From NCBI GenBank assembly GCA_019429145.1, contig JAHYJI010000007.1, positions 1-42,043 on the forward strand: a stretch of DNA of 42,043 nt, written 5' to 3'. This DNA comes from Coriobacteriia bacterium (lineage in GTDB: Bacteria > Actinomycetota > Coriobacteriia > Anaerosomatales > SLCP01). The position numbers were made by a program, and so were the translations under genes. A model generated the notes under the pieces. That model was not told the DNA's origin and made no database searches. It saw nothing but the letters and a program-made list of their open reading frames with translations. This document shows, piece after piece, positions 2,342-30,800 of the stretch (the first letter of the stretch is position 1; every line of letters starts with the position of its first letter).

Positions 2342-2360
2342 CTCGCTCACGGGCTCCCCT

Positions 2361-3619
<1,259 letters not shown>

Positions 3620-3623
<4 letters not shown>

Positions 3624-4237: not shown

Positions 4238-4250
4238 CGGTGCTCCCGTC

Positions 4251-5621: not shown

Positions 5622-5625
5622 AGCG

Positions 5626-5631
5626 CCTCCT
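5626..5631 (-). promoter_or_regulatory. Shine-Dalgarno site deciding the TTG start of tig
   Basis: On the minus strand a perfect AGGAGG is followed by four bases (CGCT) and then TTG. It is the only strong ribosome-binding sequence near the start of tig and is the main reason for choosing a TTG start. The spacing is a little short but usable. Confidence 0.7.
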
Positions 5632-5666
5632 GTGACATGGACGGTGTGGTGATACCGGATGCGGAC

Positions 5667-5751
5667 TGGTGCGGGCGAGAGGACTCGAACCTCCATGAGT
5701 TTCCTCACCAGGACCTAAACCTGGCGCGTCTGCCAATTCCGCCACGCCCGC
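5667..5751 (-). tRNA. tRNA-Leu, anticodon UAG
   Basis: An 85-nt class II tRNA including an encoded CCA end. The acceptor stem pairs GCGGGCG with CGCCCGC, followed by discriminator A and CCA. The anticodon stem CCAGG/CCTGG encloses TTTAGGT, giving anticodon UAG, which reads CUN leucine codons. A long variable arm (TGAG, GAAA loop, CTCA), as expected for tRNA-Leu, and a T-loop TTCGAGT on a five-pair stem (one G-U pair) complete the cloverleaf. It lies 45 bp upstream of tig on the same strand and may be transcribed with it. Confidence 0.96.
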
Positions 5752-6746: not shown

Positions 6747-6795
6747 GCGCGTTCCCCCTGAGACGAACTGTAGCAGGCGCTCTCCCCGATTCACA

Positions 6796-6828
6796 GCACC
6801 CGGGGAGCCTGGTCGGCACCCCGGGTGC
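6796..6828 (-). terminator. Probable terminator of the giant gene
   Basis: A perfect 10-bp inverted repeat (GCACCCGGGG at 6819-6828 and CCCCGGGTGC at 6796-6805 when read on the minus strand) with a 13-nt loop lies 36 bp after the TGA stop of the giant gene. No T-tract follows, which is common for hairpin terminators in GC-rich Actinobacteria. It may reduce read-through into the membrane protein gene. Confidence 0.6.
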
Positions 6829-6864
6829 GTGGTCGGTCGGACCTTATGCGGTGAACGGGCTCAC

Positions 6865-9800
6865 TCACTCGAGCAGTTGCGCACTCCAGTAGCCCGTAGT
6901 GGGCGTCATCACCACCTCGGGGTCGCTCGTCTTGAAGGTCAGGTAGTCGAAGGCCGCTGAGCCTCCGGTGGCGATCAGGCCGAACCGCCCGTCGGTCACG
7001 AGCGCGTTGTACGCGAAGGTGAGCACGAGCTTGCCGTCAACGAAGACCTGCACGACGTTGCCCTGCAGCGTGATCGCGAGCTTGTAGTCCTTGTCCGCCT
7101 TGATGCCGAGTGCGATGGTGGCGTCGGCCTTCACGCGTCCGCGGCTGATGTGGCCGAGCACGAGCGAGCCGGTCCTCGCGTCGATGGTGACGAACTTGTA
7201 GTCGTCATCGTCGTAGTAGTCGAAGGTGAACCCGGCGCTACCGCTCGTCTTCACGACGGTCTCGAGCTGCAGCAGGTACGCCGCGTCGATCATCGTGCGC
7301 GTGAGGGCGACGGCGGTGCTACCGGTGGCCGGCGCGACCGTGGCCTTGCCGCCGGCAAGCACCCATTCACCTGCGACAGGAGCATCCATCAGCCCGGACG
7401 GGTCGACCTCGAACTCCTCGGTCTGGACGTGGACGACGTTGGGCGGCAGCACCTGGACGATCACGTTGTCGATGCGTCCCTTGGAGTTGTTGGCCCCGAT
7501 GCCGACCATGCCCTCGTTGAGCATGTGGACGTACCCGTCCTCGTCGACGCGCGGGGTGTAGCTGTAAGCGAACGAGTACTTGCCGTCGATGACGACCGTG
7601 ACGTAGGTACCGTTCACCGAGAGCAGCACGCGGTAGTCGGTGTCGGGCCTGAGCTTGCAGTTCGTCCAGGCCACGACCACCCAGCCGCTCGCATCGCGGT
7701 AGCCGAGCTCGAGCTTGTCGGTCGACACGTTGATGCCGACGAACTTGAAGTCGGTCGGGCTCTGGTAGTCGAAGATGAGATACGCGTTGGCCTTGTAGCC
7801 GGCGATCGGCTTGACGGCGTTGATGGTCGCCTGCACCTCGTAGTACCTGGGCAGGTACGCATCGACGTAGAAGACGCTCACCGCCTCGCCGCCGAGGGTC
7901 TCGGGCGCGACCTCGAGACGTCCACCCGTGACCGTCCAGCTGCCGGAGTCCGCCGCGAAGTTCTGTGCAGTGCCGTCGTTGAAGCTCGCCGAGCGGAGCA
8001 CGTCGCGCGGCCCGCCGGGCACGTTGCCGGCCTGCGGGTCGGCGGGCGCACCGGTCTGGTCGTGCCACGCGGGATCCTTCTGCAGCACGAGGCCGAGTTC
8101 GCCGTCGGGCTCGCCGTTGCGCACCGCGGCGTTGCCGGTGTCGATCGAGCGGGTCGGATCGGCGCCGTGCGAAGCCGACAGCGCGTAGAGGAACTCGTGC
8201 AGCTGTGGCTGGAGCGTGCGGCTCACCGTAGCCGCACCGAACGGTGCGAACGGCACGATGTAGCTGTTGAACTCGCCGACCCAGTCGATGAGCCGGTCCC
8301 CGCCGGTGTTCGCGATGAGCACGTCACGGCCCGCGCCGCCGTACGCGCGGTCCTCGTAGGACGGGTGCGTGTCCGGGCTGCGGTTGGTGCCGCCGTCGGT
8401 GTCGTGATCGTCGTCGACGTTGAGCAGGTCGTCGCCCCATCCGCCGTAGAGGGTATCGCGGCCGGTGCCGCCGACGAGCCAGTCGTTGCCGAGGTCACCG
8501 AAGATCACGTCGTCACCGTCGGTGTTGACCGGCCCGTACGTGCCGCCCTTGTCCAGCGTGCCGCCGGGAAGCTCCGGACCTTCAGTCTTGTCGAAGTTGA
8601 GCAGGAAGCCCGGTATCTTCGCCCACGGGTCGTACTCGTCGTAGTCGGCGAACTCCCCTGCCTTGTCCTTGCCGTAGCCGAGCACGTTGCCGGGGTTGTA
8701 GGGCGCGGCGTAGAACTCCGGCAGCGCCTCGGCGCCCGAGATCGCGTCGTCGCCCGCACCGCCGTGCAGGAAGTCAGAGCCCAGACCGCCGTAGATGATG
8801 TCGTCAGCGTAGAGCGGTCGGAAGAGCGGGTTCTGGATGCCGCCTGACGCACCGATCGGGTCGAGGTTGAACGGCTCGAGGTTGACGGTCTTCTTGAGCT
8901 GGCCTTCCACGTTGATGACCTCGTACTGCATCTTGCCCGGGGTGTAGATGATCTCGTTGAGCACGTTGCCGTTGGAGAACCTGGTGTCGGGATCGCGTGC
9001 CAGCAGCTCAGCGATGCCGTAGAGCGGCTCGCCCCAGACCGCGCTGTTGCGGCTCGTGTAGATGCGGCCGTCGTCGCCGAGGACACCGTCCTGGCCCGTG
9101 CCGCCGGCGATCCAGTCGTTGCCCCAGCCGCCGATGATGTCGTCGTCGCCGGCTTCGCCGAAGATGACGTCGTCACCGACCATGCCGTAGATGGTGTCGT
9201 CCCCGTCCTCGCCGTGGATCTCGTCGCCCGCCCCGATGTCGGTCGCCGCCTGCGCGGGCTTGTAGTCGGGCCCGCCCGGTGTGTAGTCGAGCAGCTCGAC
9301 CGCGCGCGGTATCAGCCGCAGGCCGCCGTTGTAGGTGTCGTAGTTGAACGTGCGGTAGGCGGTGGCCGCGCCGCCGTTGACGTAGACGATGCGGTAGATG
9401 TTGGCGTTATCGCCGGCGATGGTGTCCGCGTCGCGCGCGTGGCTGTCGCTGCCGTCGGTGTTGCGGTCGATGTCGGTCCCCGCGCCGCCGAAGATCATGT
9501 CGGCGCCGTCGGGCCGCTGCGAGCGGTCGACGAGGCTGAAGAGGCTCGAGCTGCCGCCGATGATGTCGTCCTGGCCGAGGTTGCCGAAGATGGTGTCGTT
9601 GCCGCCGTTGCCCTCGATGTAGTCGTCGCCATCGGTGTCGTGCTCGAAGGACGGGGTCACGTTCAGCAGCCCTGCCGCGTCGCGGTATGCGCCCACGCGC
9701 ACGCCGTCGTTGACGGCACTTACGACCGAGCCGTCGCCCTGGATCGTGTCGTCGCCCAGCTGGCCGAAGATCATGTCGTCGTCTGGCCCGCCGGCGATGT

Positions 9801-12800
9801 AGTCGTCGCCGAAGTTGTTGAGCCCGGCCGCCTCATCGGCGAACGAGTGATCGAGCAGCGTGATCGTGAAGTTGGTCCACCACGGCGAGGTGCCCGGACG
9901 CGCGTAGTAGTCCACGAGGCCGATGGCCACCTCACCCGCGAGATCGTACATCGGGCCGGACGACACGCGGAAGCGCGGATCGCGGAAGTCGGCCAGGTCG
10001 GCCTTGCGGTCCAGGCGCACGTTGTCGCCGAAGATCAGGTCCTTGTCGCTCACGCCGGCGATCGGCTCGAGTTCCAGAGCCGTTACGGTCGCCAGATCGT
10101 AGGCGCCGTAGCCGTCGATGATATCGCCAGCCGCGCCGCCGATGAGGATGTCGTCTCCGGCCCCGCCGAAGATCGTATCGGCGCCGCCCAGCACACGGTC
10201 GGTCGTCTCGATGACGCGGACGATGCCACCGAACGCCTTCACGTAACCGTTGTCGCCGAGCACGATGTCCGCGCCGGCACCTGCCGAGATGATGTCGCCC
10301 TCGTAGCCGCCGAGGATGATGTCGTGCCCGCTGGTGGTGACGATGATGTCGCTACCGCCCAGGTCGGGATCGGTGGTGGTCACCAGGTCGACGTCGGCGT
10401 GGTCGTGAGCGTCGTCTGTGACGGCCCAGTCGACCCAGCCGGAGTCACCGAGCACGATGTTGTTGCCGAGCTCAGCGGTGATGACGTCGTCACCGTTGCC
10501 GCCGAACAGGACGTTGTCGCCGGTCGACGCATGGATCTCGTCGTCGCCGCCGATGGTCGGATCGACGGTGATGGCGAGCGTGACCGGACGGATCACGCCG
10601 TCGGTCTTGTCGCCCCAGCCACCGTGCCCGAGCACCTGGACTGCGTAGCCCTCGAGCTCGACGAGGACCGCCATGTCGATGCCCTCATCGGCGATACCCT
10701 CGGGAACGGGCCACTCGGCTGCGTCGATGAAGATCACGCGGCCACGGTCGCCGAAGATGATGTCGTCGGCGGTACCGCCCTTGATGGAGTCGTCGCCGTG
10801 GCCGCCGAAGATGATGAGCGGCAGTGTGGAGGTCGATCCGTCCACGACGTCGTTGTCGCTGTACGCGGCAGGCGTCTGCGGGAGCACGAACGTCTCGGAG
10901 GTGGCCTCTACAAACTCGCCGTCCTCGTCGAGCGCGCCGATCTTGACCTCGGCGCTGAGACCCACGTGCGGTGCCGCGTTGATGGCGAGTGCCACGAAGT
11001 CGAGCTCGTAGTTGACGCTGTAGTACCTGGGATCGAGCACCACGCCGTCGACGAGCACGACGATCACGTCCGCGGGCGTCCTGTGGTCGCCTGCGCTGAT
11101 GTCGGTCGCAAGTTCGAGCACGTGGTTGTAGGGGCCTTGAGTGTTGAGCACGAAGAACTCGTCCTCGCCCGCGTGCAGGTCCACGGTGACCGTGTCGTCA
11201 CCGAGCCCGGTGTTGAGCGTGGTGATCGTGCGAACGCCGGCCCGCAGGTGCGTGCCGTCGATGTGGATGGTGTCGTCGCCGTAGCCGGTCCACATCGTGA
11301 TGCCCTCGATGAAGTCCCCATCGGCCTCGGCACTGTAGGTGATCGACCCGGCGATCTGACTCGTCGCCATGCCGACGATGAAGATCTCGGCCTGGCTCGC
11401 CACGTCGGGATCGCGTGCGACCGCCGCCGCGTAGACGTCGGTGATCAGCACGTCGGTGTCGCCCTGGATCGCCGACTCGTCGCTGATGAAGAGCTTGTGC
11501 GTGCCACTACCCGCGTAGATGTTGAGGGTACCCGCCAGGTCGTTCAGGTTGCCGGGCAGGAACTCGATGTAGTCGCCGAGCGTCTGGTTCGCCTCGGAGG
11601 ACACGTAGATCTGCTCGTCGCCGTCGTAGGTGCTGAGGTTGGTGACGGCGGAGGTGCCGCGGACGTTGAAGACGTCCTCGCCGCTGCCAAGGCCGATGTT
11701 GAGCGTCTGGATGTTGTAGTAGTTGATGCCGCTCAAGCGCAGCGCCAGCTTGACCGTGCCGGTTAGGTTCGTCGTGTCGATGTCGGTCGGTTTGATCTCG
11801 AAGAACGCGTAGGCGCCCTGGAACACGATGACGAAGTCGTTGCCGTACTTGCGGACGGCGATGTTGTCCTGGTACGGCAGGGACGACTCGAGGTGCATGT
11901 CATCGATCGCCGAACCGTTCGGGTTGAGGACCGGGTTGAGCAGCTTGCGCAGCTCGTCGGCGGTCGCGTCGTAGGGCACGGTCACCGTGAGCAGCGCGCG
12001 ACCCTCCGCCTCGGTGATGCCGACGGGCAGGTTGGCACGCAGCTCGGGATGGTTGTCGTAGAAGCTCAGGTCGAACGTTCCGCCGGTGGCGTTGACGGTG
12101 ATCGTCTGGACGTTGGTGACTGTCTTGCCGTCCTTGAGCGTCGCGGTAGACACGAGCGCGAGTTCCTCGGGCGGAGCCACCAGTGCGGTGTCGACCTGAC
12201 CCAGGTCGTCGATCTCGGCCCACACGAGCTGCGGCATGTTGCGGCCGGCCAGCATGCCACCGAAGGTGATCGTGAGCGTCACGACGTAGCCGTCGACCTG
12301 CTTGTCGACGAAGATGTCTGCCGCGTCGAAGCCGTAAAGCAGGGCCAGGCGGTTGCGCACCTCCTCGGCAGTCATGTCGTAGTCGAGCGTGACGATGGCG
12401 AATGACAGCTGCCGTTCGACCTCGCCCGGGATGTCGGGGAAGGCCGGCTTCCAGCCGAACCCGTCGGTGCGCAGCCGGTAGGTGCCGCCGGCCGCCTGGA
12501 CCGTGATCGTCTGGACCTCGGGGATCGGCTCCACACGACCGTCGCGGACGGTCGAAGTCCTGACCTCGGCCGAGGCGTCGACGTTGGGAACGAGCAGGTC
12601 GTCGATGCCGTCCTCGTTCTCGTCGACCATCACCCAGGTGATCTGCGGGATGTCGATGCCTGCGAGAGCGGCCACGAACTGGATCGTGTAGGTGACGTTC
12701 GTCGACAGACGCTGCTCGGCGACGCGGACGTCGCTGGCGGTCACGAGCATGCCGCCCGGCTTCATGTTGAGCAGCTGCACGAGTCTGTTGCGGAACTGCT

Positions 12801-15800
12801 CGGCGCTGAACAGGTAGTTGAAGGTCGCGCTGCCGTACCCCTCGATGCTCAGCGTGTACACGCCGCTCTTCGCACGTACGAGGACCGTCTGGACCTCGGC
12901 GATGGTCGGCATGTCGAGGCCGGTCAGCGTGGTCGGGGTGAGGATGCCGACGCTGTCGTCGGTGTCGTCGGTGTCGTCGATGGTGAGCATGTCGCCCCAG
13001 GCCGGCGAGCCGAAGATGCGGTATCGGTCGCCCGCCTCCGGTGCGACCGGAGCGTCGCCGCCGGGCAGCCACCAGCCGTCGACGGTGACGGTGGTGGCGG
13101 TGTTGGCGACCACGGTGCCGTACGCCTTGACGGCGCCGGCTGCGTCGTAGACCTCGACCGTCATGCCGGCGAGATCGACGAGGTGGAGCGCGCGTACGGA
13201 CTCGTCGGAGATGTCGACCGCGAGTGCGTTCATCGCATCGCCGTCGGCCGCGAGCATCGCGTAGGTGATAGTCGCGATGAAGGTCGCGCGATTGCCGAGC
13301 GCGTCGCGCAGGACGTACTGGAAGGTGTAGGTCTCGAGCGAACTGAACTTCGCACTCGGCGTGAAGGTGAAGACGCCGGCCTGCGCGTCGAACCCGAGCG
13401 TGCCGATCGAGACCTGCGTGAGGACGTCGACCGAGAGCACCTCGATGCCGGACCATGTGCCGGCACCCGGCAGCGCGGCTTCGAACTCGGCGTTCTCGTC
13501 CTCGAGCGTCAGGCCGTCGCCACTCGTGCTCCAGATGGTGCCGACGTAGTCGCTGTCGCCGCCGTCGATGACGAGTAGTGCGCCGATCTCGTCGATCCTC
13601 CGCTCGCGATCGGTCCACAGCGCGGCGCCCTCAGGGGTATCGATGAGCGCATCGTATGCGGCGGTCAGGACTCCGGTCCCGACGCTGATCGTGTCGCGCT
13701 CCGAGCCGGTGTCGAGGAACGTGTGGCCCGCGATGCTCCGGATGATGACCGTGTCACGGCCCGCCCCGGTGGAGATGTAGGTCGCACCCTCGTGCGTCGA
13801 CTCGACGGTGAAGTGGTCGTCGCCCGAGCCGAGCTCGATCCTGAGGACCTCGAGGTTGTGGTAGGCGATGCCGCCCTGGATGTAGCGGCCGGCGATCGAG
13901 GTGTCGCCGCCCATGCCCAGACCCATGAGACGGTCGCTGGTGAGTACGCCGTGGTCGTCGGCGGGGCTGTTGCCGTGATAGATGATGAGCGTGTCGACCT
14001 GCTCCTCCTCCACGACGCGGAAGTTGAGGTTGAGCGGCGCGATCGAGTACTTGTCCCGATACGCCGGCTCGAGCGAGTCGCCCTTGTACGTCGGCCACGG
14101 GCTCGTGAACGTCACGGTGGTACCGGAGATCAGCGGAGCGTACTGGGTCGTTCCGTTGATGACCTCGGCCTGCAGCTGGTATGTCAGGTCGGCGATGCTC
14201 GTCGGCGCGTCAACCGGGTCGTCGTCGTCCACTTCGTAGACGTCGGGCGTCATCGCTCCACGCCGATGCAGGATGATCCGCCAGTCCCCCGCGAAGTCGT
14301 TGAAGATGAAGCCTGCCTGCAGCCACGCGACCGTCGTGCCGAGCACGGACTGGACCGGCGTGCCGCTGACGGTGCCGCTGGCCCCCGTGCCGGAATCGAA
14401 GCCGAACGCAAACGTCGTACCCGGCGTCTCGCTTCTCACGAGGATCCTCGGGATGCCGAGCAGGCTCACCAGGAAGTCAGCCTGGTAGCCTTCGAGCTCG
14501 TCGATCAGCATCGCGAGTTCCTGCGCGATGATCGACACGACGTTCCTGTTCTCCTCGACCGTGTAGTACACCGTCTGATCGCCGACCGTAATACTCCACG
14601 TCTCGCCAGCGGTGGCGTTGCCGCCGAACGACAGCACTGCCTGCAGCCAGCCGCCAAGCGCGTTGATCGCCGCCAGGTCGTCCTGATCAGGCGTTCCGAT
14701 GAACGTCATCGAGGAGCCCGGGGCTCCGCCGTCAAGCGTGACGTTGACGGTGAACGGTGTGTCGTTGGCGATCGAGAGGATGTCCTCGGACACCTTGCGG
14801 ATGTCGAGTTCTGTCCCGAGCAACGGATCGTCGAGGAAGGTGAGCGTGAACGGGTAGTCGTTCATGCGCGGATCGAAGCCGGGCCGCTCCCCTGTCATGG
14901 CGCTGACGTGGACGGCCTCGGGGTTCGTGAGGATCGCCTTGAGGTAGCTGTCCACGTCGGAGTCGTCGGTGCCGGTCGTGACGGTGCCGACCTTGCCCTC
15001 GGCCATCGGGTAGTTGGTCTCGCCCGGCAGACGGAACGGATCGTTGAGGAAGCGCTCCTCGCCGACGCGCAGGCCGCCCTCGATGGTCAGCGGTCCGCGG
15101 ATCGCGTTGACCCGCTCTTCGAGCGCCGGGAACACCAGCGCGTCTCCGCCGTCGACGAAGTCGTCGTCCACAGCCATGACCCAGACCGTCTGCGGCTGGT
15201 TCCAGTCGGACGGCGTGAACAGCAGCTGTGCTGTGATCTTCGCGCCGCCGGCCGTCTGAGTGTTGATGGTGACGGCCGCCGTGACGAGCGTGGCGTCCTT
15301 GCGGTTGATCGTGAGGACACGGCCCCAGACGCTGACGCTGAAGAGGTTCTCGCCGGGCGCGTTGATCTGGGCGGCAAGGCCCGTGGCGATCGTCGCGAGG
15401 TCGTCGCGGAACTTCACGGTGTAGCTGAAGTCGCGCGTCACGCCGCCCGATGTCAGGCTCAGCGTCCAGACCTCACCCTGGGCCGGGAAGCCCTTGAGCT
15501 CGACGGCCACCTGGTCTGCGCCCGTCTTGGAGACGAGCGGGTTGCCGGCCTTGTCGTCCGTCGTGGTCGACCAGTCGCCCCTACTCGCTGGCGTGGCCGC
15601 GTCGACGTAGATGCGGAAGTCGACGAAGAAGGCGAAGGTGCCGCTGATGATGGTGAAGGACACACCGTCAGAACCGGTCTCGACGGTGAAGTCGGCGGAC
15701 AGGCCGGCGATGAGCTGACCGGCGATCTCGGCAAGCGTCGCTCCCGAACCGCTGACCACGATCGGCGTGCCCGGACGGCCCCTCGTGGTGCCGAGCGGAC

Positions 15801-18800
15801 CCGTGACGACCTCGACCGGGGTGACGATCAGGTACCACGTCTCGGTCGCTGCAGGCGTGCCCGTCAGGATGACGTGGGCGCGGTTCGTGGCGACCTTGAC
15901 CTGGATCTCGTTCGCCTCGCCGTAGTTCGACTTGGGATCGAAGGCCTTGTCAGAATCGTAGGTGCGCGTCTGCTGCGGATCGATGTGGACGGTCACGTCG
16001 TCCTTCGGCTGGCCGGTCAGGACGACCTCGTAGCTGTCGGTGACCGGAGCGTAATCCTCGAAGTCCGGGAACTCGACGAAGGGATCGTAGCTGATCTCGA
16101 ACGTCGTGCCTGCAGCGAGCTGTGCCGCCGGCGACGTCTCGGGATCGATCGCCGGATCGTCCCAGACCACGATGTAGTATCCGCGCTCTGCGTCGTACGC
16201 CACGATCGTGGCCGTCTCGCCCGCGTAGTCGCCGGACGTGATGGTGACCGTCTTACCGGCGAGCGAGATCGCGTCGGCGTTCGTGGCATGTCGCTGGAGC
16301 GACACGACGAGGTCGTAGGAGAGACCGGCTACCACGCCCTGCGGATTCGGTGAACTCAGGAAGTACTTGTTCGGCTCGTAGCTGACGACCGAGCCGACCC
16401 TTATCTCGTACCAGCCAGCCTGGGTGAACTCGTACTGGATGAACGGGTCCTTGACCGAGCTGCTGCCCGCGTCCGGCGTGCGAGGATCGGCGTTCTTACC
16501 GTACCAGTCGCTCGCGAGCGGACTGGCAGGATCGATCAGCACCGGAGTGCCACCCGGCTCGGCAGCGTAGTAGAGCTCGAGGGTGACCACGGTCGAGTAC
16601 GCGTAGGTGTAGGTCCTGAGGACCGGGATGGCGATGAAGCCGAAGAGGTACTCGTACTCGACGACCGTGATCGTCGTGACGCCCTCCAGCGGCGTGGCGT
16701 CGTCGATGTCGAACACACCGATGACCTTGCCGGACTTCAGGCCTGCCGAGAGCGTGAACGGATCGTCTCCGGCCTGCATGCCGAGTCTGGTGTCGACGTC
16801 GTTGTCCTCGATGGTGATGATGACCCCTGCCGCGGTCTCGACGTAGGAGGCGTCGTAGATCCCGCTCGTGTCGATCTGCTCGACGAGCAGTTCTGCGATC
16901 CTGCCGACCGTGCGCTTCTCCGGGCTCGGCTCGGCAGGAAGCGTCACGCTGTACTCGACCCCGTCGATGACGATCGTCCAGACCTCACCGGTCCGGTAGC
17001 CCGTCTTCGTGTCGAGGACGAACTGCGCCTCGAGATAGTGGACGCGGTCGTCGTGTTCGTACGTCATGGGCTTGGCGTAGGCCGCCGCACGCAGCTGGCG
17101 CACGTCACCCACGTTGACCGCCGCTCCATCGGTGCCCTTGATCAGTACGATGCCGCCGCTCTCCGCGGAGGCGGTCACGCCGGTCAGGCTGCTCGCGATA
17201 GCCGTCGCGAGCGCGTTGATGGTCGCGTAGTTGCCGGGTGCGGTGAACGACTGCGGCGTGCCCGCCACGGTGATCCACCAGCGGTCGCCGATCTCTGCGG
17301 GCGTGGGCCCGGCGGGATCGAGCGCGACCCGCTGCTCCCAGTAGAGCTTCACGATGCCGCGGAGCACCGGCTGGAGTGCCGGGCTGGGGTCGCGCACTAT
17401 CGTCGCGCTGAGCGCGAACGCCGTGTTGTCGAGGCGGCTCACGTAGACCTTCCCGCCGTCGGCGAACGCGGCCAATCCCGCCGTCCCGTTGACCAGAGAC
17501 GCTAGTGCGGAAGCCACCCCGTTGGCGTTGGCCGAGGAGGTCGCCACCGCGTACGGGTAGGCCGTGGTGCCCACGTAGAGCGTCCAGGTGTCGCCCTGGT
17601 TCGCCGGTCCGGTGAGCGCGATGACCCGCGTGCTTACCGTGCCGATCGACACCGTCTCGGTGGACGGATAGACCTTGAGCGAGACGCTCATCGCAACGGT
17701 GGACTCCATCGTGATCGTCGAGCCGCTCGCACTCGCGTCGACGCCCGTGATGCCGTTAGCGCTGGCGGCGAGAGCGGAGGCGACCGTGCCCGCCGTCGCG
17801 CCGGAGGCCACGTACGTGTAGGTGGTGCCGGCGCGAGTGATCCGAAGCTCGAAGGTGTCCGTGGCGCTTGCCGGCGTCGGCACGACGACCGTCCAGTTCT
17901 TGTTGTCGCCGGAGCTTGCGGCCGCGGAGGGCAGGTCGATCTGGACGATCTCGATCAGGAACGCGGTGCCGTCCAGTCTCGTCACGGTAAGCGTTGAGCC
18001 GTCTGCCACGGCGCGGAATCCGCTGACCGTGCTGAGGGCGGTCGCCATCGACGTCGCTACAGCGCTCGTGGTCGCACCGGTTGCCGTCCTGGTGGCGATC
18101 GTGGTGGTGCCGTCACCTGACTTGAGTGCGACGGTCCAGGTTCCGCTCGGGTAGTTGCGTGAGATGGTGACGGTCTTGCTGCTGTCCGGAGTCGCCTGTG
18201 TCTCCCAGGAGCCCGCGGGTTCGACCGTGACCGCCATCGTGAAGGCGGCGGTCCTCTCGATCACGACGGTGGCGCCGTCGGCATATGAGGTGAATCCGGG
18301 CTGCGCGTTCAGCAGCGACGCCAGCGAGGTGGCGACCTGCGCCGCGGTCTTGCCGGACTCAACGGTGTAGACGGCTGTCGCCGCGACCGTGCCGCCAAGC
18401 TCGCTCACCGTGATCGTCCAGGTCTCGCCGTGGCGGGCTGCCGGGATGTCGATGCGCCCTTGCGTCCAGGGCACCTGCTCGGCACCGGCCATCGTCGCCG
18501 GACGACCGTTGACGGTGATCGTCGCCGTGGGCGCCCAGCCCTCGACGGTGAACCTGAGAGTGAACGGGCTTGCGAGAGCGAGCGTCAGCGTCGCTCCGGA
18601 CGCCGAGGCGCCGGCACCGACTGAGCTCGCGAATCCCGATGCGATCGAGTTCAGACTCGCACCCGCTCCGACCGTGACCGTGTGCGCCACGCCGGAGACG
18701 TAGAGCTTCCAGACCTCGCCTTGCACAGGCGTGCCGGCGAAGGTGACAGAGGCGCTCGCGAAGCTGATGAGCGAGCCGTTCTTGTCGTTCACGCTCACCG

Positions 18801-21800
18801 AGCGCGTCACCCATCCGGCATCCACGTTCTCGTGCACCAGACCCGGAGTCGGTGAGCCGGTGATCGGGAGTCCCGCGAAGTTGAAGCCGTTCGGGTCGCG
18901 GATGATGAGGTGGGCACCGAGCGCGTCCACGAGGACCTCGGAGGGCAGCTGGCCGGTCTCGGCGTCCTCGACGAAGTAGCGAGGCGCCGCGGCAAGCGCT
19001 GCGAGCAGACCCTGGGCGACGTCGAGCAGGGTGTCCCCGGCCTGCACCGTGTAGCTGTAGTTGCGGTACCTCAGACCGAGCGTCCACGTGTCGCCCGGTG
19101 TCACGCTGCCGGTGAGCACGAGGTCGATCATCAGGTAGAACGTCGACGGGTCGATGACCGTTCCGGGCAGCGTATCAGCGTCGCCGAGATCGATCCCATC
19201 CGGTGCCAACATACTCGGATCGATGTAGAAGCGGTACACGTCGAAGCTGCCGTCACCGGCGCCGGAGATGCGCGCGTACGGCGTGGTCGAGTCGATCAGC
19301 TGGAAGCCACCGGGGTTGAGCGGATCGTAGAGGTGGCCGTTACCGACCGACGCATCGTAGAACTGGAAGAAGTACTTGCCGGGATCGCTCTCGGGCGTGA
19401 TGACCTGGCCGTTGCCGAGCTCGTTGTTGGTCTGCTCCTCCTCGAGCACGGGCTCGGGAGCGAAGATGAAGCCTTGGACCGGATGGGCCTCGATCGAGAC
19501 GTGCATCTGGTAGTCGACGCCCTCGGGTATGGTGCCCGTCCCGTACGGCAACCAGTTCGAGATCTCGATGTAGTAGATGCCCTTCTGATCCAGGTAGCCG
19601 GTGAGGTAGTCATCGAGCCACGTCGTGCTTCCTGCGGCTCCGACCGACGGGTCAGAGTAGCCGAGGCCCTGGGCGACGAGCACGTAGGTCCGCTCGTTCT
19701 TGACCATCTCGAGCCGGTAGAGCCTGATCTTGCTCGCCCAGAAGACCGCATCGCCGTACTCGTAGCCGCGGTCGATGTCGATGACGTAGGCCAGACCCTC
19801 GGGGCCTGCCTGCTCCCACATCGCGTCGGTGATCTCGAAGGTGTAGTAGTCGTTGTTGCCGTCACCGGTCGCTACGACCGTGATGTGCGGCAGTTCGTCA
19901 GAGCGCTCGATGTCGACGTGCTCGTTGTCGTTCCACTTGCCCAGATCGATGTCCTGCGCGGTGCGGAACGTGTTGTGCACGAGCGTGGTCTCGTAGAGGA
20001 TCGCCATGCCGAAGTCGCCACGGAACTTGGTGGCCACGGCCGAGGCGGCCACCGTCGTGGGCGCGAATGCGGCGTTGATGGCCGCGGCAAGCCCGTCCGC
20101 GATGTCGCTCAGGTCGTCGCTCCCGCCCTGGGTATAGGTGATCGTCTTGTTGTCGATGACGATCCTCCACACACGCCCGCTCTCGCCCGGGCCGAACAGG
20201 ACGATCGTCGCCGACGCGAACGCGCTCGGGTTGTCCGCATGCGGCACCGGTGAGATGAGGATCAGGGGATCGAGGTCCATCGCGCCGAAGACCGACCCGT
20301 CAAGGTTCGGAGCAACGACGAGGACAACGGGGGTGATCTGGCTCGGATCGAGCACCGTACCGCTGCCGAGGAGCACGCTGTTGCTGACCTCGACGACCAC
20401 GGTCGCGCCGTCGCTCTCGATGATGCGCACGCTCGGAGCGTCATCGTCGGTGATCTTCACGTCGACCGCATCCGGACGCGTCCCGTCCCACATGAGCGGG
20501 GCGACGTAAGTGAACTCGACATCGCCGATGGAGATCGTCCAGGTCTGGCCCTCCTGAACGATCAGACCGCCGGTGAACGTGATCGTGACGTGCAGCGTGT
20601 CTGCCGTGCTGGCGTCCACGAGCTCGAAGCCGAATCCGGTCGGAACGGTCACGGTGACCGTCGGTGCGCCCTCGGCGATGCTGCCGGTGATGGTCAGCAC
20701 GCGCCCGGAGACGGCGGCGTCGTACGCGCCCGCGCTCTCGGTGTCGATCGCCGAGGCGAGCGCCGCGGCCACGTCGGTGAGATCGAGTGACTTGAACTTG
20801 GAGCCGGCGATGAAGCGGTAGTCGACCTCGTCGTAGAGCAGAAGCGTGTCGTCGAGCGTGATGGTCCAGGTGTCGCCCTTGGTGAGCGGCTCGGAGTCGA
20901 CCTCGACGAGCAGGACGAGCTTGGCCCAGTGCGTCGTGCTCGAGCTCGCTGCGATCGTGCCGACGACTACCTCGTCCGCTCCGCCACCGAAGCGGAGCGC
21001 GGTGATGCTCGCGACGTACGAGCGGCTCTTGAAGTCGTCGGACGCGGTGTCTGCAGGCGCGATGGTGAGCGCTGCGGGGCTCGGGCTCTCGGCGACGGTC
21101 ACGGTGTACAGGCCCGGAGCCTCGGCAGCGATCTCGCTCATCAACTGTTGGGCCACCGAGTACAGCGTCGGGTCGGCTTCGCCCTGCTTCTCCGCGGTCA
21201 CGCGGAAGTCGGTCCCGTTGATCCTGAGGATGTAGATGTCTCCCGCATTCACTGGGTCCGTGAGCATGACGGTCATCGCACCGGTGTACGCGCGGACCAA
21301 GTTGGGCACGTCGATGATCGTGATAGAGGAGTCCGGCGGTGAGGCGAGGTCCGCCTCGAACGCCTTCTCGCTCTCGATGGTGATGGTGCCGGCCGAGGTG
21401 TCGACCTCGGTCGTGTACGTCTTGTACGGATCGCCGGCGATCGCAGCGGCAAGCCCCTTGAGCAGGTCGTCGAGGGTGATGTTGAGGAACCCGTCGATGT
21501 TGCCGGTGAACAGGTGGCGGACCCGCGAGAAGTGCACGCCTTCCTTGTCGAAGTCGTCGACCGCCTTGACGGTGACCTGCCTCGGCGTATTCCAGTCGCT
21601 GTCCGTGAAGACGAGCTCGCTCACCTGAGCGCCGCCCATCCATACCGAGAGCTGGTTGTCGTGATCGATCGTGATCGTGACCGTGGTGCCGGGTGCCGGA
21701 GCACGCGTGAGCACCACGTAGTAGTCGTCGCTTAGCGGGATCGCTCCTTCGCCCTCGGCGACGAGAGTCTCGTCGTGGGTCTCGACGACGAGCACCTCAG

Positions 21801-24800
21801 CCGCGTCGTCATCGATCACGTGGACCTGGACGCCGAGCGTGGCGATGCCGTCGTATGCACCGCCGTCGTCGGCGCGCACGCCCTGGATGACGGTGTGCTG
21901 GATGTTGAGGTAGCGCGAGCCCTCGGCCAGTTCGTCGTGAGGCGCGACCACCGTGATGAACTGCGGTATGAACCAGTTGGTCCGGTCGAAGAGGAGCGTA
22001 ACGCCCTTCTCGCTCGGCACGGCGGTGGAGAGATCCGTACCGACGATGAGCGCGATGCCCTTGCCTCCCGCCAGGACCTCGCTCTCTCTGAGCGGTATCG
22101 GGGCAGCTGTCACCCTGACCGTCTCCTCGGGCGAGCGCGTCAGCACGACCGAGTATGTCGCGTACGAGAGACCGTTGGAGTTGAGCGTGTCGCCCTCGAA
22201 GACGCGCAGCTGCTGCGCCACCGTGACGACCACGCCCGGCTCGTCGTTGTCGCCGACCTTGGCCGAGATGCCCTGGACGAACACGTTGTTGTAGTCGGCG
22301 TCGGCACTGGTGACCGTGTGGACGATGAGTCCACTGTGGCCCTGGAGGTCGTTGCTGACGACCGTGATCGCCTGACCGTCGTTGCCGCCGCCCACGTGGA
22401 ACGTGTCGCTGCCCAGCCCGCCGATGATCTCCACCGCAACGCTGTCGTCGGTACTCGCGATGAAGAACCGGTCGTTGCCTTCGAGCGCATCGACGACGAG
22501 CTTCTCGAGACCGGTGTAGGTCACGTAGAGCCCGGCGCCGAAGACGCCCTTGTCTGTGATGACGAAGTCGTCACCGAACTCGGTACCGATCACGACGAGG
22601 GTGTCGAACCCGTCCCCGCCGTCGATGCGCACCGGTGCGTTGACCGTGAACGCGATGAAGTCTGCGCCCTGGCCGCCGTTGATGTTGACGAACGGCGCGT
22701 CCGGATCGTCGGGATTGACCTTGACGAATGCTCTGACCAGGAAGGTATCGTCGTCCTCGTCGCCATACAGGTAGATCTCCGCCTTGTTGCTGTAGACGGT
22801 GAAGTCGTCGTTACCCGCGCCGCCGAAGAACGTCGAGCTCACGCTCGCACCGTTGCTCAGGTAGCCGCGTGTGATGTGGGTGGTCTCGAAGTAGTCCTTC
22901 GGGTCGAGCCCGTTGTCCGGGTTGATCTCGTCACGTGGCGATGCGAAGACCTGCCCTATCTGGAACGTGTCGTCTCCCGCGTCACCGAAGATGACCATCG
23001 GTGCGAGGTTGTCGTCCATGACGAACGTGTCGTCGCCCTCGCGACCGTAGATGACCAGCTTGCCGTTGATGGAGCCCTTGTAGTTGATGCGCTCGACCTC
23101 GCCCGTGTCGATGTCGATAGCCGAGATCGACCCGAGCGGCCCCTCGTGCCAGTTGCGATTGGCCCGCATGAGGAAGTAGTCGTCCCCGCGCGTGCCGTAG
23201 ACGTAGAGATCGTCGATACCGTACACGCCGCTGTCGAACGCGTTGACGATCGCCGACCCCATGCCCGACAGACCGATGTGGTACGTGTCGCTCCCCTCGC
23301 CGCCATCGATGCTCAACTCGTCACCGATGCCGTTGAGGAACGTCTGCTCTCCCTTGTCGTTGTAGTTCACGCGGAAGATGTCGTCGCCCGAGCCGCCGGT
23401 GACGACCGTGGGCCCGTTGATCTTCTCGATGTTCACCACGTCGTTGCCGCCGCCGAGACTGACCTCGGTGCGACCCGGATGCGTGCTCGCGATGTAGAGG
23501 TCGTCCGCCCCCTGCGAGAGGTTCACGAAGAGCTGCTCGAAGGCCTCGTAGTCGATGCCGATGACCATGCCCAGGCCGGACAGCCGGGTCGAGCTCAGCC
23601 TGCCGGCCGCAGCCCCGATGTTGTCCGCGGTGTCACCGGAGTCGTAGACGTAGAGCCTGTCGTCGCTCCCTTCGCCTGCTGTCAGGACGAGACGGGCCCT
23701 GATGGTGTGCAGGCTGCTGTTCGCGGCGGGGTTCAGCGCGTCCGCGTCGCTGCCGACATGCACCGTGTTGTTGCCGTTGCCCGTGTGGATCGTGGTGCGG
23801 TTGAGCACCGTCTCGACGCGGAAGTCGTCGTCGCCGCTGCCGAGCTTGATGAGTGTCTCCTGCATGCCGTAGAAGTGGATCTCGGCGGTCATGTCGAGGC
23901 CGGTCAGCTTCGTCCCGACGAGGTCGTCGACGTTAGTGATGCCGGTCAGCAGACCGCGGTTGTTCTGGCTCTCACCGGTCTCGTCCACCCAGAGGGTGTC
24001 CGGCGCGCCGTCGTTGTGGTTGGTTGCGTCGCTTGCTCCGTAGACGGTGAGCTTCGCCTTGATCTCGTTCGCTGTGCCCAGCGCGTTCGAGAGCTCGAGC
24101 ATCCCGGTGCCGGCATCTCGGTGGTGGACGGCGTTGGTGCCCACGGCGACCTCGTCGTCGGACAGGCCGAGGAACAGGTTCGCCTCCACTCGGAGCTTCC
24201 TGACCGCTACACGGTCGGGCCCGCCCAGCGTGTGAACGCTCACGAGCTCCACGCCCTCGTGACTGATCTGGGTGCGCGGCACGATCGCGCTGCCCGACCA
24301 CTCGTGCGACACGACTTTGCTGGTCGTACCGCTGACGTCGAGCGTGAGCGCGTCGCTGAGCGCGCTGCCGTAGACGTACAGCGCGTCTCCGGCGACGGTC
24401 CCGTCGATCGAGATCGTCGTCGTGATGAGCGGGTTGATCGAGATAACGTAGGTACTCGCACCGCTCAGCGTCGGACCCAGTGTAGAGATCTCGCCTCTCC
24501 ACGGAGTGACCGTGCGGGCCGCAGTGCCGATGTAGATGGTGTTGTCGACGTCGTTGATGACGAGCGTGGTGCCGGACGCACCCGTGAGCACCGCCCTCTC
24601 GAAGATACCGTTGAGCTGCTCGACCGTCGCACCCGCGGCGTAGCGATCGTAGGTCGGGTGCGCGCCCGGTGCCGTCAACGTGCCTACCACGAACGTGTCG
24701 TGGAAGAGCGACATGTCCGCATCGTGGCTCTCAACGAGCGTGTCGATGCCGCCCGCGTCGATGAAGACGTCGAGGCCTCGTCCGCCGGTCATCGTGTCGT

Positions 24801-27800
24801 TGTCGATACCACCGTCGAGAACGTCGTTGAAGTCCGAGCCGATCAGCGTGTCGTTGCCGGGTCCGCCGTAGAGCCTCAGCGCGATGAGGTCTGCGAGCAT
24901 GCCAGAGGCATCCACGTGGTCGTTCCCGGCACTGCCGTCGTTGGGATCGCCGGCCGCCACGTTGAGCTTCAGGACATCGCCCTGCGACCTGACCGCGTTC
25001 ACGAGGTAGACCACCGGTAGCATGGTGGCCGAGCCGCTCGGAGTCGTGACCTTGACCATGTTGAAGAGCACGTCCGGGTCGTCAATCGACTCGGTGACGG
25101 TCGAAGCGGCGAACTTGTCGTTGCCGCTGCCGCCCACGAACATGACCGTGTCGGCCGCACCCGTACCGAGGTTGATGTAGATCTTCTCGGTCGTCGTGAC
25201 CGTTGCGGTGACCTCGCTGCCGCCCCCGGCCCTGACGATCGTGACGACGTCGCCTGAGGCTGACACGGTAAACGTGTCCGGCGTGTTGGGCCCGGTGATG
25301 ATCAGGATGTCACTCGATGTCGGGTCCCCGCCGTGGATCGTCGGGTTCCCGGGAAGGGTGGCGTTCCAGCGGATGATGTCGTCACCGTCTCCACCGTGGA
25401 TGGTGTCGTTGCCGCCCCGGCCGTCGATGTCGTCGCGCTCGGAGCCGCCGTTGATGGTGTCGTTGCCCGGCCCACCGAGGATGACGTCCTCGCCGGGACC
25501 GCCGTCAAGCGTCGCACCTGCGGTGTTGTTGTTGACGAGGTAGTCGTCGCCGTCGCCGCCGTAGATCATGGAACCTGCGGCAGCGTGCTCGCCGAGCTCG
25601 AGGTAGTCGTCATCACCGTCGCCGTAGAGCTTGGCGATCCCGTTCCCGAGGTAGATGAGCATGTCTTCGCCCGTACCGCCGTGAATCTCGACGTCGGCGC
25701 GCACGCCCTCCCGGATGATGAGCTGGTCGTTGCCGCCGCCGAAGTCCGCGACGATCTTCGAGACTCCGGTGAACGTCTGGGTACGGCCCATGCCGGTCAC
25801 CAGTATGGTTTCGTTGTCCTTCTCTCCACCGACGTGCTCGATGGTGTAGACCTCGTCGGGATCGTCCTCGGACACGCCGCGTACACCGGCCCTGTCTCCG
25901 ACGTTGAGGTAGAGCACGCCTCCGCTCGCCGCGGCATCCCACTTGGCTGCCTCGCCTGCACCCGGCGCATTGCCAGCCAGGTGCACGATCTTGGGCAGCG
26001 TGATGGTGCCGAGCTTGAAGCTGACCGTCTTACTCACCTTGACGAACAGGATCTTCACCTTGACGGTCACGCTGGCGGTCACCGGAACGCTTCCGCCCGT
26101 CTCGCTGCGGACCTCGACCCTGAAGCCGAGTTCGAGACTCGCGAACGTGATCCCGAACAGTCTGGCCTTCACTGCTGCGCTGGCCTCGACGCCGAACCAG
26201 TACTCGTTCACGGGTGGCTCGGGCATCCACAGCCACACCCGGAAGTGGAAGTTGCCTTCCAGACCGAAACTCTTGGTGCCCAGGAGCACCCTTCCGTCGA
26301 GCGTCAGGTCGAACGAACCGCTGGAGTGGATCCAGCCCTTTGCGGCCATGTCGGCAAAACCGAAGAACTTCGCGCTCGCGCTGAAGTCGATGACCCAGTC
26401 ACTCGGGCCGAGCGTGAAGACGCGCTGCGTGACGCCACTGCCTACCGTGACGTCTCCGCCGCCCACCTGGATCATGAACTTGGCGTCGAACTTGATGACC
26501 TCGAGGATGTTGATGCTGCCTTCGAGCACCAGACGGAAGGACTTGGCACCGAGTATCGTGCCGTTCGCGTTGCGATCGACGGCACAGGTGTTGAGCTGCA
26601 GCTCGCCGCCCGCCTTGATCTTGATGATGTCGAGCAGGTTGAGGTCGAGCGAGACGGCCAGCCGCATCGCGAAGCCGGGGTTGCTGTCCGCGTAGATACC
26701 GGCGAAGCCCGCCGCCTTGACGTTCAGCGGACCAAGCTTGATGGTGACGTCGAATGCGAGTTCGAATGCGCGGTTCTGGATGGAGATGCTGACCATGCCG
26801 CTCGCCTCAGCCAGCCCCAGGAACGTCACTTCACCCTGTATCAGGAGTTTGAAGCCGGGCAGTATGTCGTGCGGACTACCACCAGGCGGAGTGTAGGTGA
26901 TGGTCTGCGAACCAGTATTGATCTCGAGAGTCGCACTCGCGTTGAAGCCAAGGCCGATGTTCTTGCCGAAGTCCACGTCGAGTCCGGCGTTCACGTAGAG
27001 CACCAGCCCGCGTGAGTCAACTCTGAAGAAGCCGACTACTTCGACCTCACCGATCGGGTTGAGAGCCATGCGGCCGAATACTTCGAACTCGACGTAGTCG
27101 GGTCTGATCTCCAGCTCCGCGAAGGCCACGATCTCGACTATCTCGGCCAGCTCGATCTTGCCAAACATCATCAGCTTGAAGCCTGGCTCGACGGTGACGT
27201 TGCCGAGCTTGATCGAACCGCCGGGATTGGTCGCCAGCAGACCGGCCCCATCTGCAAGTTTGTCGGCCGACGGGTTGGAGAGCTTCGCGACGTCGTAGTT
27301 CGTCATGAAGGTCTGGAATGTGTACGCGCTGCTGAATGAGTTGAATTCAAGCAGGAACTGCCCGTCGAGGTTGACACCCGGGATGCCGCCGCCGGCCTGG
27401 AGCGCCAGCGTCGCGCGCCCGACGATGCCCACCGACGGGCTCGTCACGAACATCATGTCGATGGAGCCGGAGAGCGCCCCGATGTACGGGATCTGGGTGC
27501 TCACCGCACCGGCTATCCTGACTCCACCGGAGCCGGCAGTAAAGCTGAGATAGCCGCTGAATGTGATCCTGTCGAAGAGTCGAATCGTGCCCTCGATCAG
27601 TGCTGACACGTAGAAGATCTCGCCGGCTGCGTAGACGGGATCCCGCGAGAGCCCGTCGAGCGCCGGGCGGCCCTTGTAGATGGTCAGCAGCGTCGGGAAG
27701 CTGTCCGGCAGGACGTTGAGGAAGGACTCGGGCACCTCGAAGATCTGGTCCGCGTTGGTCGTGTTGAACATGACCTGCACGCGGCCCCTGAGCGAGAAGA

Positions 27801-30800
27801 AGCCGTCAAGGTCGCTGACCCCGCCCCCGACGTCCGCAGCCAGCTCGAGCCTCACGAGCCCGGCCACACCGACGGTGGCGTTGACATCACCAGCGGCCTT
27901 GTTGTCGTTCGCATTCAGGTCGATGATGAGCAGGCCGATCACGCGGCCTTCCAGACCGAGCGGGACGATCTCGCCTGCCGCGGCGATGAAGAAGTCGAGC
28001 CGCTCGGGCGAGAACTTGATCAGGAAGCCTCCGCCGAGCTGGAACAGGACGGTGCCGCCGGACTCGACCCTCAGTCCGCCGACGACCTCGAGCTGGAACG
28101 AGTAGGGAGCCAGCTCGTACGTGCGCTTCTCCCCCTTGACGAGGAAGATGTTCTTGCTGCTCACCTCTTCGCCCTCGGCGTTGAGCGTCACCGATGTCGT
28201 CTTCTCGATGAAGAAGTAGCGGCCGTCCTTCAGGTACACCTTCCACTTGATGCCCGCGACGATACCCTCGACCTGAGCATCGGCGAGATCCTCGTCGGTC
28301 AGGCCTGTGAAGTTCTCGAGCTTGTACGTGATGCCGTTGCCCGCCAGCAGCGAGATACTGGTATCCGAGGCATCCGGCACGCCGTCCACGTCGCGGTCGG
28401 TGCCGGGATTCTTGAACAGGTTCTTCCAGGCCTCCGGCAGGGCGACCTTGCTAAACGTGTTGGTCGGCAGGCCGGCAGGGGCGCCGCTCGCGTCGATCGC
28501 GAACACCGCGCCGCCCGGGATGCCCTCGAGCGAGAGTGTCTCGGTCTGGATGCGGTCCGAGGCGTTGATCTGCAGCAGCGCGCTGCCCTGCAGATAGATG
28601 CCGTAGTCCTCGAGGAACTCGAAGTTGGTGGCAAAGGCGGCGACACCCCAGAACTCGATGTCGCTCAGGCCGTTGCCCATCTCGAGGATGAACGCGGCCG
28701 CGCCGGACGCCAGGTTCCCTATCTTGATGACCTTGATGGTGCCGGACGCGTAGAGCGCGATCCGTGCCTTGGTCGTGCCGTCGGGCATCGGACGGTTGCC
28801 GAACTCGAGCGCCACCTTGCCGCGGATCTCGAGGATCGGCTCGTCGCCGAACAGGTCACCGAAGCGCAGCTCCATGCCACCGGACAGCTCGATGAAGAAG
28901 ACCTCGTAGGACGATCCTTCCGCCGGCTCGGCGGGAGGTGCAGCGACCGGCTGGGTGACGAGGAAGCTCTGAGTACCGGCAGCTCCAAGGTTACCCGCCG
29001 TGTCGTACCAGGAGCCCGCGATGAAGCTCACGTTGACCGCACCGGCGACGAACCTGCCGCTGAGGTAGTAGCGGAGCGTCCTACCGTCGGAGAGCAGCGT
29101 GGGCGCAAGCGCCATGAGCGCGACCATGTTCCCACCCGCGCCTAGGCCCGAGCCACTGAGATCGAACTCGGGATCCTCGTCGAGGATCGAATCGTAGTCG
29201 AGCGCAAGCCCGCCCACCGTGTTGAAGACGATGTCCATGTAGGTGCCGCCGGGCAGCGTCACGGGCGCCACGCTGCTGATGACGCTCGCCACTCCTGCGT
29301 ACGTCCATCCACCTGCGGCGAAACTGCCGGTGATGATGTCGCCGGCCGCCAGACCCGTGCCGGTGACGGTGAACCGGTAGTTGCCCGCCGACGACCCGGA
29401 GTCGATCGCGGTCGCCGTGATGCCACCCGAGAAGGTGATGTCACCAAGACCGATGGTGTCGGTGTTGAGAGTCGAGCTGTCGCCGAAGTACACGTCGACC
29501 ACGAGGTTCCCGCCGAACTCGTAGACGGTGAACTGCTGCGTGGCGAAGAGCGGGATCTCCATGCCTGCCTCATCGAGGAAGATGACGCTTCCGCCGATGA
29601 GCGTGACGGTGATGGTGTCGGTCTCCGCGGTGCCCGTGTAGAAGTACCGGAATGTGTAGTCTCTGCCATTCTCACTCACGCTCACGAGTACCGGCGCCTG
29701 TGTCGCGTCCAGCACGAGCGTCGTGCCGGTCGGGACCGAGAGCGTGAACTCGGGATCGAGGTCGGTCACCGAGGCGACGTCGAGCGAGGCCGCGTACGCC
29801 GGGACCGTGAACGTGACGTCGAAGAAACCGCGGTTGTTGAGATCGTCGGCTCCGATGATGCCGCCGGCCGACGGACCCGCGAGATCCGCCGTCAGCTGCA
29901 CGATCGTGAACGACTCACGCTCCGCAACGTTGCTCCACGTGCCTGACTGGAAGGTTCCGGCCGCGAAGTCCGCGTTCACGGTGCCCGCGGTGAAGTCGCC
30001 GGTGAAGTAGTAGCGGTAGGTGACGCCGTCAGCAAGGAGTGTAGGCTGGGCTGCGAGCAGGAGCGCGGCGGTCCCGAGACCGGGGCCGCTCAGCGTGAAC
30101 TCGTCGCCGTTGATGGAGCTTGCGTCCAGCTCGTCGCCGGCGGTCGGGTTGTAGCGCACGTCGAGGTAGCCGATGTTCGGCGTTGCGACGCCACCGACGA
30201 GGAAGCCGATCGGCGACACGGTGCCACCGGGCGTGCCCAGCGTGACGGCACCGGTCGTATACGTGCCGAGCGTCCAGTACCTGAACACGAACGCACTGCC
30301 CTCCGGGCGCAGGTAGAGCGGCGCCTGGCTGGCATCAATGGACAGCGTCGTGGACGTCGCGCCGCCCACGAGGAGCGTGACCTCGCTGCTCGCATATCCG
30401 GACGATACCGGAAGGATCACGTCGATGTAGCCGCGGTCGTTCAGGACCTTCGGCGTGGTCGAGCCGCCGTTGCCGGGATCAAACAGATCGGCGGTGGGCC
30501 CGCTGACCGTGAAGGTCTCGGTCTCGGCGATGTTCCAGGTCGTCACGAGCGCGGCTGTCTGACTCCAGCCGTTCGCCAGGAACTGCACCTCGATGACACC
30601 GGGCATGAGGCTGCCGCCGAGGAAGTAGCGATAGCGGCCGTTGCCCAGCGACATCGGGTCGTCGCCGATGAAGCTCATGCCGCTGATCGTGAACTCGTCG
30701 TTGTCGATGCTGCTCGCGTCGATCGCGGCGCCCGTCGCCGCCGTCGTCTTGTAGGCGACGTCGATGTAGGTCTGCCCGTTAGACGGCAGATCTCCATGAC

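Follow-up and report, generated by a model that had tools for sequence, protein, structure and literature searches.

The question raised by this locus is whether a single domain of a giant protein can be spread over 5.3 kb of its gene with other domains lodged inside it. The locus lies on contig JAHYJI010000007.1 of a Coriobacteriia bacterium (assembly GCA_019429145.1), of which positions 1 to 42,043 were analysed (the whole stretch is hereafter called the window). A preliminary description of this DNA had proposed that three distant peptides of one giant open reading frame are parts of one Calx-beta-like (CBL) domain, separated by PPC domains and repeated units (E units). Our analysis, made at the level of sequence, indicates that this domain, CBL3, is very probably one Calx-beta-like sandwich that the chain leaves twice and to which it returns, the inserts having been gained in-frame in surface loops. 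CBL3 would be the third of a conserved row of three Calx-beta-like copies. Its opening strand would be followed by an excursion of 1,448 residues comprising E4, PPC1, PPC2 with E5-E12 inside it, and a KOW-like unit, and its hairpin by an excursion of about 210 residues comprising E13 and E14, after which the host would resume; taken together, the inserts exceed 1,600 residues. An orthologue is encoded in G014, a genome from another family of the same order, by a frame of 12,372 amino acids (aa), the first ~330 residues of which resemble another frame before a run of Ns. The parts of the host and its surroundings are as follows, bit scores being those of the profile hidden Markov model (HMM) of outside copies described below.

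6865..42042, minus strand: giant open reading frame (11,725 aa; N-terminus beyond the contig end)
21805..22245, minus strand: CBL1, uninterrupted Calx-beta-like copy (aa 6600-6746; 49.5 bits to the outside-copy HMM)
20377..20439, minus strand: CBL3 piece 1, opening strand (aa 7202-7222, model 1-21; 15/21 identical to G014)
15955..16050, minus strand: CBL3 piece 2, hairpin (aa 8665-8696, model 21-50; 9.0 bits; 21/32 identical to G014)
15133..15234, minus strand: CBL3 piece 3, late strands (aa 8937-8970, model 66-94; the 38.1-bit match ends here; 24/34 identical to G014)
14995..15132, minus strand: conserved end box R.N.I.GPL.I.GG...LPGE, which follows CBL3 in relatives (aa 8971-9016; 41/46 identical to G014)

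All three peptides, PSVRIIESDGATVVVEV (opening strand, 20386-20436), DSYEVVLTGQPKDDVTVHID (hairpin, 15979-16038) and FTPSDWNQPQTVWVMAVD (late strand, 15166-15219), are present as had been claimed, except that the coordinates first given for the opening strand were one codon off; like all the pieces, they lie on the minus strand in this single frame. The frame (residue i of which has its high window coordinate at 42042-3(i-1)) contains no internal stops, against 31 to 722 in the other five frames of the stretch. The HMM, with 128 positions, was built from 13 uninterrupted copies, 11 of them from genomes G157, G520 and G768 and two from record L010, the copies of the window and of the orthologue being excluded; when the L010 copies were kept whole the hairpin was misplaced in the alignment, and each was therefore cut in two. 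This model finds CBL1 at aa 6602-6746 (49.5 bits) and CBL2 at aa 6748-6848 (63.0 bits, model 2-107, the closing strand missing), and it finds the fragments of CBL3 in model order, with aa 7203-7219 on model positions 2-18 (-0.6 bits), aa 8667-8696 on 21-50 (9.0 bits) and aa 8841-8966 on 21-95 (38.1 bits; core at aa 8937-8965 by jump alignment). The remaining window matches listed are all weak, at most 0.8 bits, and G014 gives the same pattern. When aa 7190-9010 were aligned to the model with a jump-tolerant Viterbi aligner charging a fixed 8 bits per long jump, the window scored 84.1 bits, compared with a mean of 25.5 (standard deviation 3.6, maximum 33.9) for 60 shuffles and 30.5 bits for the reversed sequence, and G014 scored 81.4 bits, compared with a maximum of 36.6 over 60 shuffles. 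The opening, hairpin and late blocks were recovered at all four jump prices, the cheapest of which added stray blocks. So aligned, CBL3 spans 1,790 aa in the window, with loop gaps of 1,448 and 251, and 1,765 aa in G014, with loop gaps of 1,440 and 235.

Homologous genes present the same copy with its loops empty or otherwise filled. In the phylum to which L009, a Lentisphaeria record, belongs, a profile made of the late-strand region and the end box matched 3 of 288 genomes, and it matched 2 of 66 genomes that share the class of G157; its previous version had matched 2 of 396 genomes across the phylum, the window's own and G157. CBL3 is uninterrupted in G768a (L036 aa 1189-1320; 132 aa, loop gaps 2 and 40) and in G157b (L024 aa 5497-5650; 154 aa, loop gaps 19 and 44), and on either side the sequence flanking this copy in G768a runs collinear with the window (aa 1-1010 on 5821-6846, aa 1351-1486 on 9341-9498). 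Four further genes have the first loop closed (1-10 residues), and since their hairpin-to-late loops carry sequences other than the window's (220 residues in G157a, 116 in G157c, 149 in G520 and 121 in G768b), the second loop is filled differently among lineages. In G634 (L029, from the phylum of L009) the hairpin-to-late loop holds 214 residues with two E units, as in the window, and the E units, the second PPC2 half, the KOW-like unit, the hairpin, the two E units and the late strand follow each other in window order, at 38% identity to window aa 8235-9097 over 887 columns; the G634 contig ends before the opening strand would be reached. L009 has a shorter version. The likeness of G634 to the window across phyla, together with the very patchy distribution, suggests horizontal transfer. 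Growth by in-frame insertion into loops, as the preliminary description had it, thus finds backing in two uninterrupted genes, in four with different hairpin-to-late inserts and in a split PPC2 (see below). The inserted units would have entered in-frame at surface loops, the ends of each lying close together, and the host could therefore still close. By eye, the inserts of G157a, G157c, G768a and G768b look KOW- or SH3-like, and that of G520 (L028) reads as a flagellin IN motif. On contig C45 of G157 (L023, L024, L035), three giant frames of 7,448, 11,695 and 13,159 aa each carry a CBL row, and two of them also hold Pfam-level Calx-beta copies (L040, L044).

CBL3 is probably not the only interrupted host in this protein, as a listing of the inserts and of the preceding copy, CBL2, makes apparent.

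21499..21804, minus strand: CBL2 strands A-F (aa 6747-6848; 63.0 bits, model 2-107; closing strand after E1-E3)
20479..21285, minus strand: E1-E3, inserted before the CBL2 closing strand (aa 6920-7188; E-unit HMM; 350-aa gap in the window)
20443..20478, minus strand: CBL2 closing strand, ..DVKITDD (aa 7189-7200; closing strands of two intact copies align here)
20002..20220, minus strand: E4 (aa 7275-7347; E-unit HMM)
19468..19950, minus strand: PPC1, contiguous PPC-like domain (aa 7365-7525; two stretches match PPC2 halves)
19144..19287, minus strand: PPC2 N-terminal half (aa 7586-7633; hhalign to PPC1, 28 columns, probability 53.1, E-value 1.4e-4)
16744..19143, minus strand: E5-E12, 800 aa within PPC2 (aa 7634-8433; E-unit HMM)
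16264..16743, minus strand: PPC2 C-terminal half (aa 8434-8593; hhalign to PPC1, 56 columns, probability 87.4, E-value 3.7e-6)
16090..16263, minus strand: KOW-like unit, H1 (aa 8594-8651; Pfam KOW, PF00467, E-value 2.6e-4, 21.1 bits)
15277..15888, minus strand: E13 and E14, between hairpin and late strand (aa 8719-8922; E-unit HMM)
14404..14649, minus strand: E15, in a further insert after the end box (aa 9132-9213; E-unit HMM)

By hhalign, PPC1 residues 42-69 match the fragment before E5 and residues 126-181 the fragment after E12, in the same order. On these profile matches PPC2 is itself split by the 800 aa of E5-E12, and as this split lies inside the first excursion of CBL3, the nesting read from the sequence is three levels deep. 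The name PPC, which was assigned by eye, fared less well: the kinship of PPC1 to both PPC2 halves stands, but the Pfam scan of window segments returned no PPC model at an E-value of 1 or less. CBL2 also appears split, by E1-E3, after which the closing strand of the intact L010 copies aligns. The Russian-doll arrangement within one domain, proposed from the letters, therefore agrees with the model order of the pieces, with the uninterrupted state of the same copy in G768a and G157b and with the split PPC2. Just before CBL1, at 22243-22329 (aa 6572-6600), lies an orphan closing hairpin (model 99-127, 0.8 bits; -3.0 bits in G014) that no earlier strands adjoin; perhaps a further split domain ends here.

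How far the host deserves the name Calx-beta depends on the level of comparison. The gathering cut-off of Pfam for its Calx-beta family (PF03160) is 27 bits; among 14 intact CBL copies two matched this model at an E-value of 1 or less, the best at 0.06 and 13.8 bits, short of the cut-off, and searches of Pfam, NCBIfam and PDB sequences for Calx-beta gave nothing above cut-off. When the profile of the 13 outside copies was aligned by hhalign with a profile of 25 Calx-beta copies, the match extended over the full length (columns 12-136 on 11-117) with a probability of 90.4 and an E-value of 1.4e-6, compared with E-values of 0.018 to 0.32 for five control profiles. The 25 copies come from a set of 30 matches in G157, G454, G520 and G768 that exceed the Pfam cut-off, five being left out (two without a locus, and L050, L054 and L065). 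Judged by these profiles, the host is a remote Calx-beta relative outside the Pfam family, and of the original identification it is the remote relationship that holds, not family membership.

Several results weigh against CBL3 as one nested domain of this kind. PF03160 has no match in the four window segments scanned and none in the window's own genome, and in the PDB the CBL profile finds complement C3 first (E-value 8.9e-4), the Calx-beta domain of NCX1 (2fws) standing at 0.59. The opening strand as a separate match to the outside-copy HMM scores only -0.6 bits, and without it the window still reaches 76.1 bits in the jump alignment, so that the strand adds about 8 bits net; its assignment derives mainly from its position immediately behind the CBL2 closing strand and from the uninterrupted relatives. 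Among 54 control windows of 1,816 aa, 38 contain no listed copy, and four of these 38 exceeded 40 bits, the best reaching 47.2. In a tree of CBL copies over 78 columns, the CBL1 copies and not the CBL3 copies form one clade, and site orthology therefore relies on the flanks and the end box. The match of the PPC2 N-terminal half is short (28 columns, probability 53.1), with profiles that hold 2 to 4 sequences, and the jump alignment places a gap of 350 aa in CBL2 of the window but of 17 in G014, the latter probably reflecting a false local closing strand. Two AlphaFold runs, with 4 sequences for CBL2 and 6 for aa 8652-8993, modelled the E units best: the run on aa 8652-8993 had a mean predicted local distance difference test score (pLDDT) of 52.4, with hairpin and late strand mostly below 50, and that on CBL2 a mean of 62.1, with the closing strand below 50. 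The CBL2 part, of modest confidence, gave weak structure matches (Z 5.1 or less among the matches listed), and no Calx-beta entry was among the best 50 structure matches of either model, which excludes nothing for models of such low confidence. Models of this quality neither support nor refute the packing of the three pieces; that the pieces pack into one sandwich is what their sequences lead us to expect.

Could the three pieces instead be beads on a string, either degenerate repeats in their own right or portions of adjacent domains with a mere likeness to parts of a Calx-beta-like fold? Single pieces do score low (-0.6 and 9.0 bits), and the packing appears in no structure model, but the pieces are complementary and in model order, two relatives have the stretch contiguous at the same place, and the host pieces are conserved like intact copies, which makes this reading very unlikely. 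The same conservation bears on the possibility that the insertions are real and broke CBL3, leaving remnants of a domain that is no longer formed. A first excursion of 1,448 aa far exceeds the host, and the end box stands in place of the usual closing strand, both of which would suit a fossil. Between the window and G014, however, the CBL3 pieces align without gaps and share 60 of 87 residues (69%), similar to CBL1 (96/146) and to strands A-F of CBL2 (62/100; 62-66% for the two) and well above the 42% of the E units (484/1158), the end box being identical at 41 of 46; pieces conserved like intact copies speak against a fossil host. Moreover, G014 retains the interrupted arrangement, as does G634, a member of another phylum, up to the point where its contig ends, and we regard a defunct host as quite unlikely.

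The direction of change could also have been the reverse, a nested ancestor having lost its inserts in G768a and G157b. The occurrence of the interrupted form in two phyla, and of an uninterrupted CBL3 in two genes only, would be in line with this. Yet uninterrupted copies occur as tandem repeats elsewhere (in L010, and as CBL1 and CBL2 of several genes), other members hold different inserts in the same loop, and the traceless removal of two large inserts is less likely, so that we consider loss unlikely. An assembly chimera in a metagenome bin might be suspected, since both genomes are drafts and the gene was found in 2 of 69 genomes of the order, counting that of the window, but it is hardly credible. 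The unit order recurs in G014 across thousands of residues, and an identity of ~47% means that this gene does not come from the same reads; moreover, no stop breaks the frame, and tig, clpP, clpX and valS lie on the contig as well. Insertion into one host that still closes, with gain rather than loss, thus remains the explanation that we favor.

Of the inserted units, a single E unit is about 75 aa long. An iterated E-unit HMM gave 17 matches in the protein, of which 15 were counted as units and two dropped (aa 3153-3185, 2.4 bits; and aa 6845-6899, 14.2 bits, model 36-72 only and probably a partial unit). E4-E14, 11 of the 15, lie between the host pieces, where they had been placed earlier. 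In structure searches with the AlphaFold models, E1 matched the T7 nozzle protein gp12 (Z 10.2, root-mean-square deviation (rmsd) 2.8, 95 aligned) and the sheath of cyanophage A-1(L) (Z 9.7, rmsd 2.4, 88 aligned), and E14 matched the PhiTE tail (Z 10.1, rmsd 2.2, 84 aligned), GbpA (Z 8.9, rmsd 2.5, 89 aligned) and FliC (Z 8.0, rmsd 2.4, 86 aligned); the late E2 to E3 stretch of the same model as E1 matched Ig domains instead (Z ~5). By sequence, the E-unit profile finds a cyanophage nozzle in the PDB (E-value 1e-4), and the tail sheath family PHROG 165 matches 7 of 20 E units (best 8.2e-4). Flagellin_IN (PF07196) matches 3 of the 20 at an E-value of 1 or less, the best at 0.037, which does not amount to Pfam membership, and Foldseek against viral models gave only matches of low template modelling (TM) score. 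The E units are thus probably akin to phage tail-sheath and nozzle domains, the scores being moderate and two units having been seen in structure models. H1 falls just under the Pfam cut-off for KOW (21.1 against 22.3 bits). Beyond the end box, window 14023-14994 (aa 9017-9340) is an extra insert of ~320 aa with E15, between the LPGE box and a stretch EEQVDTL; in G768a this distance is ~16 residues by eye.

The giant protein carries RTX nonapeptide repeats towards its C-terminus (HemolysinCabind, E-value 2.5e-35, 12 stretches in aa 9011-11725 in the Pfam scan). On the 3' side of its gene follow a 326-aa frame without a family match and then tig, clpP, clpX and valS (window 2-5708), on the same strand and downstream, and because these genes adjoin it on the contig the giant gene is taken to be chromosomal. 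The source genome is a draft of 2.07 Mb in 143 contigs, in which no second copy of the segment was found. Among 61 relatives and the 69 genomes of the order the gene was found only in the window's genome and in G014, where the whole segment aligns at 47% identity with the same unit order, and it was found in none of the three other genomes of the genus. A contig search with a 2,416-aa query found no relative, and a second one with the late-strand region found three loci; viral contigs (queried with the late-strand alignment and the L010 copies) and plasmids (queried with aa 8585-9100) yielded no relative. In the phylum of the L010 genome, 0 of 343 genomes matched at an E-value of 1e-8 or less, a weak test in that L010's own genome reached just 1e-7 with the earlier profile, and in the class of G634 the one match among 345 genomes was G634 itself.

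Split domains are already known in RTX adhesins, and FrhA of V. cholerae is reportedly one more RTX adhesin with such a domain (PMC10865825). The AhLap adhesin of A. hydrophila, a very long surface protein that depends on calcium, has an Ig-like beta-sandwich into which another domain is set and which is completed beyond it; a vWFA domain that protrudes from the RTX roll bears an insertion of its own, and ligand-binding domains project from the split domains (PMC12077191). The protein described here shares with these adhesins its great length and C-terminal RTX repeats, and judged by sequence and comparison its host would likewise be a beta-sandwich that is interrupted and then completed; it differs in that its host is a Calx-beta relative, that the inserts, in two loops, are ~13 times as long as the host, that eight like units lie inside a second split domain, and that homologues with the site empty exist. 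Calx-beta-type repeats of 108-141 aa that match PF03160 occur in BapP of Pseudoalteromonas tunicata, a long calcium-dependent surface protein of the bead-on-string type (PMC12153261); here likewise Calx-beta-type repeats form part of a long protein, but CBL2 and CBL3 are interrupted and no tested copy passes the PF03160 cut-off. Nested domain insertions as such extend to six levels in cyanobacterial RNA polymerase according to a survey, and the host-insert-host pattern found there is that seen here (PMC13114784); single E units conform to that survey's account, and the excursions taken whole depart from it. The E-unit fold is like those of phage tail-sheath and nozzle domains and of the D2-D3 domains of flagellar FliD and FliC, unlike which the E units form tandem arrays in a giant bacterial protein. 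Among the titles and abstract openings listed from the open-licence PMC literature, none concerned a Calx-beta domain as host of inserts. Three features have no counterpart in the papers considered: the ratio of insert to host (~13:1), the array of like units in a second split domain, and the series of homologues that includes empty sites.

The customary picture of giant surface proteins in bacteria is one of beads on a string. In the protein described here, the excursions would form an arm that branches off a long, calcium-bound extracellular fibre, and this arm may carry binding functions, as the split domains of RTX adhesins do. One could go further and imagine that giant proteins grow by the recursive in-frame insertion of a dedicated E-fold module into beta-sandwich loops, so as to become branched rather than linear, with CBL2, CBL3 and PPC2 as branch points whose arms are lineage-specific on a constant backbone; this we put forward tentatively, as a possibility somewhat short of even likelihood. 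Profile searches may miss interrupted hosts, the present stretch showing no Pfam Calx-beta match. The filled, differently filled and empty loops of the same host constitute a natural series with which the lengthening of proteins becomes testable, as do the questions of how a domain of ~130 residues closes around an excursion of more than 1,000 and whether split domains serve as general branch points.

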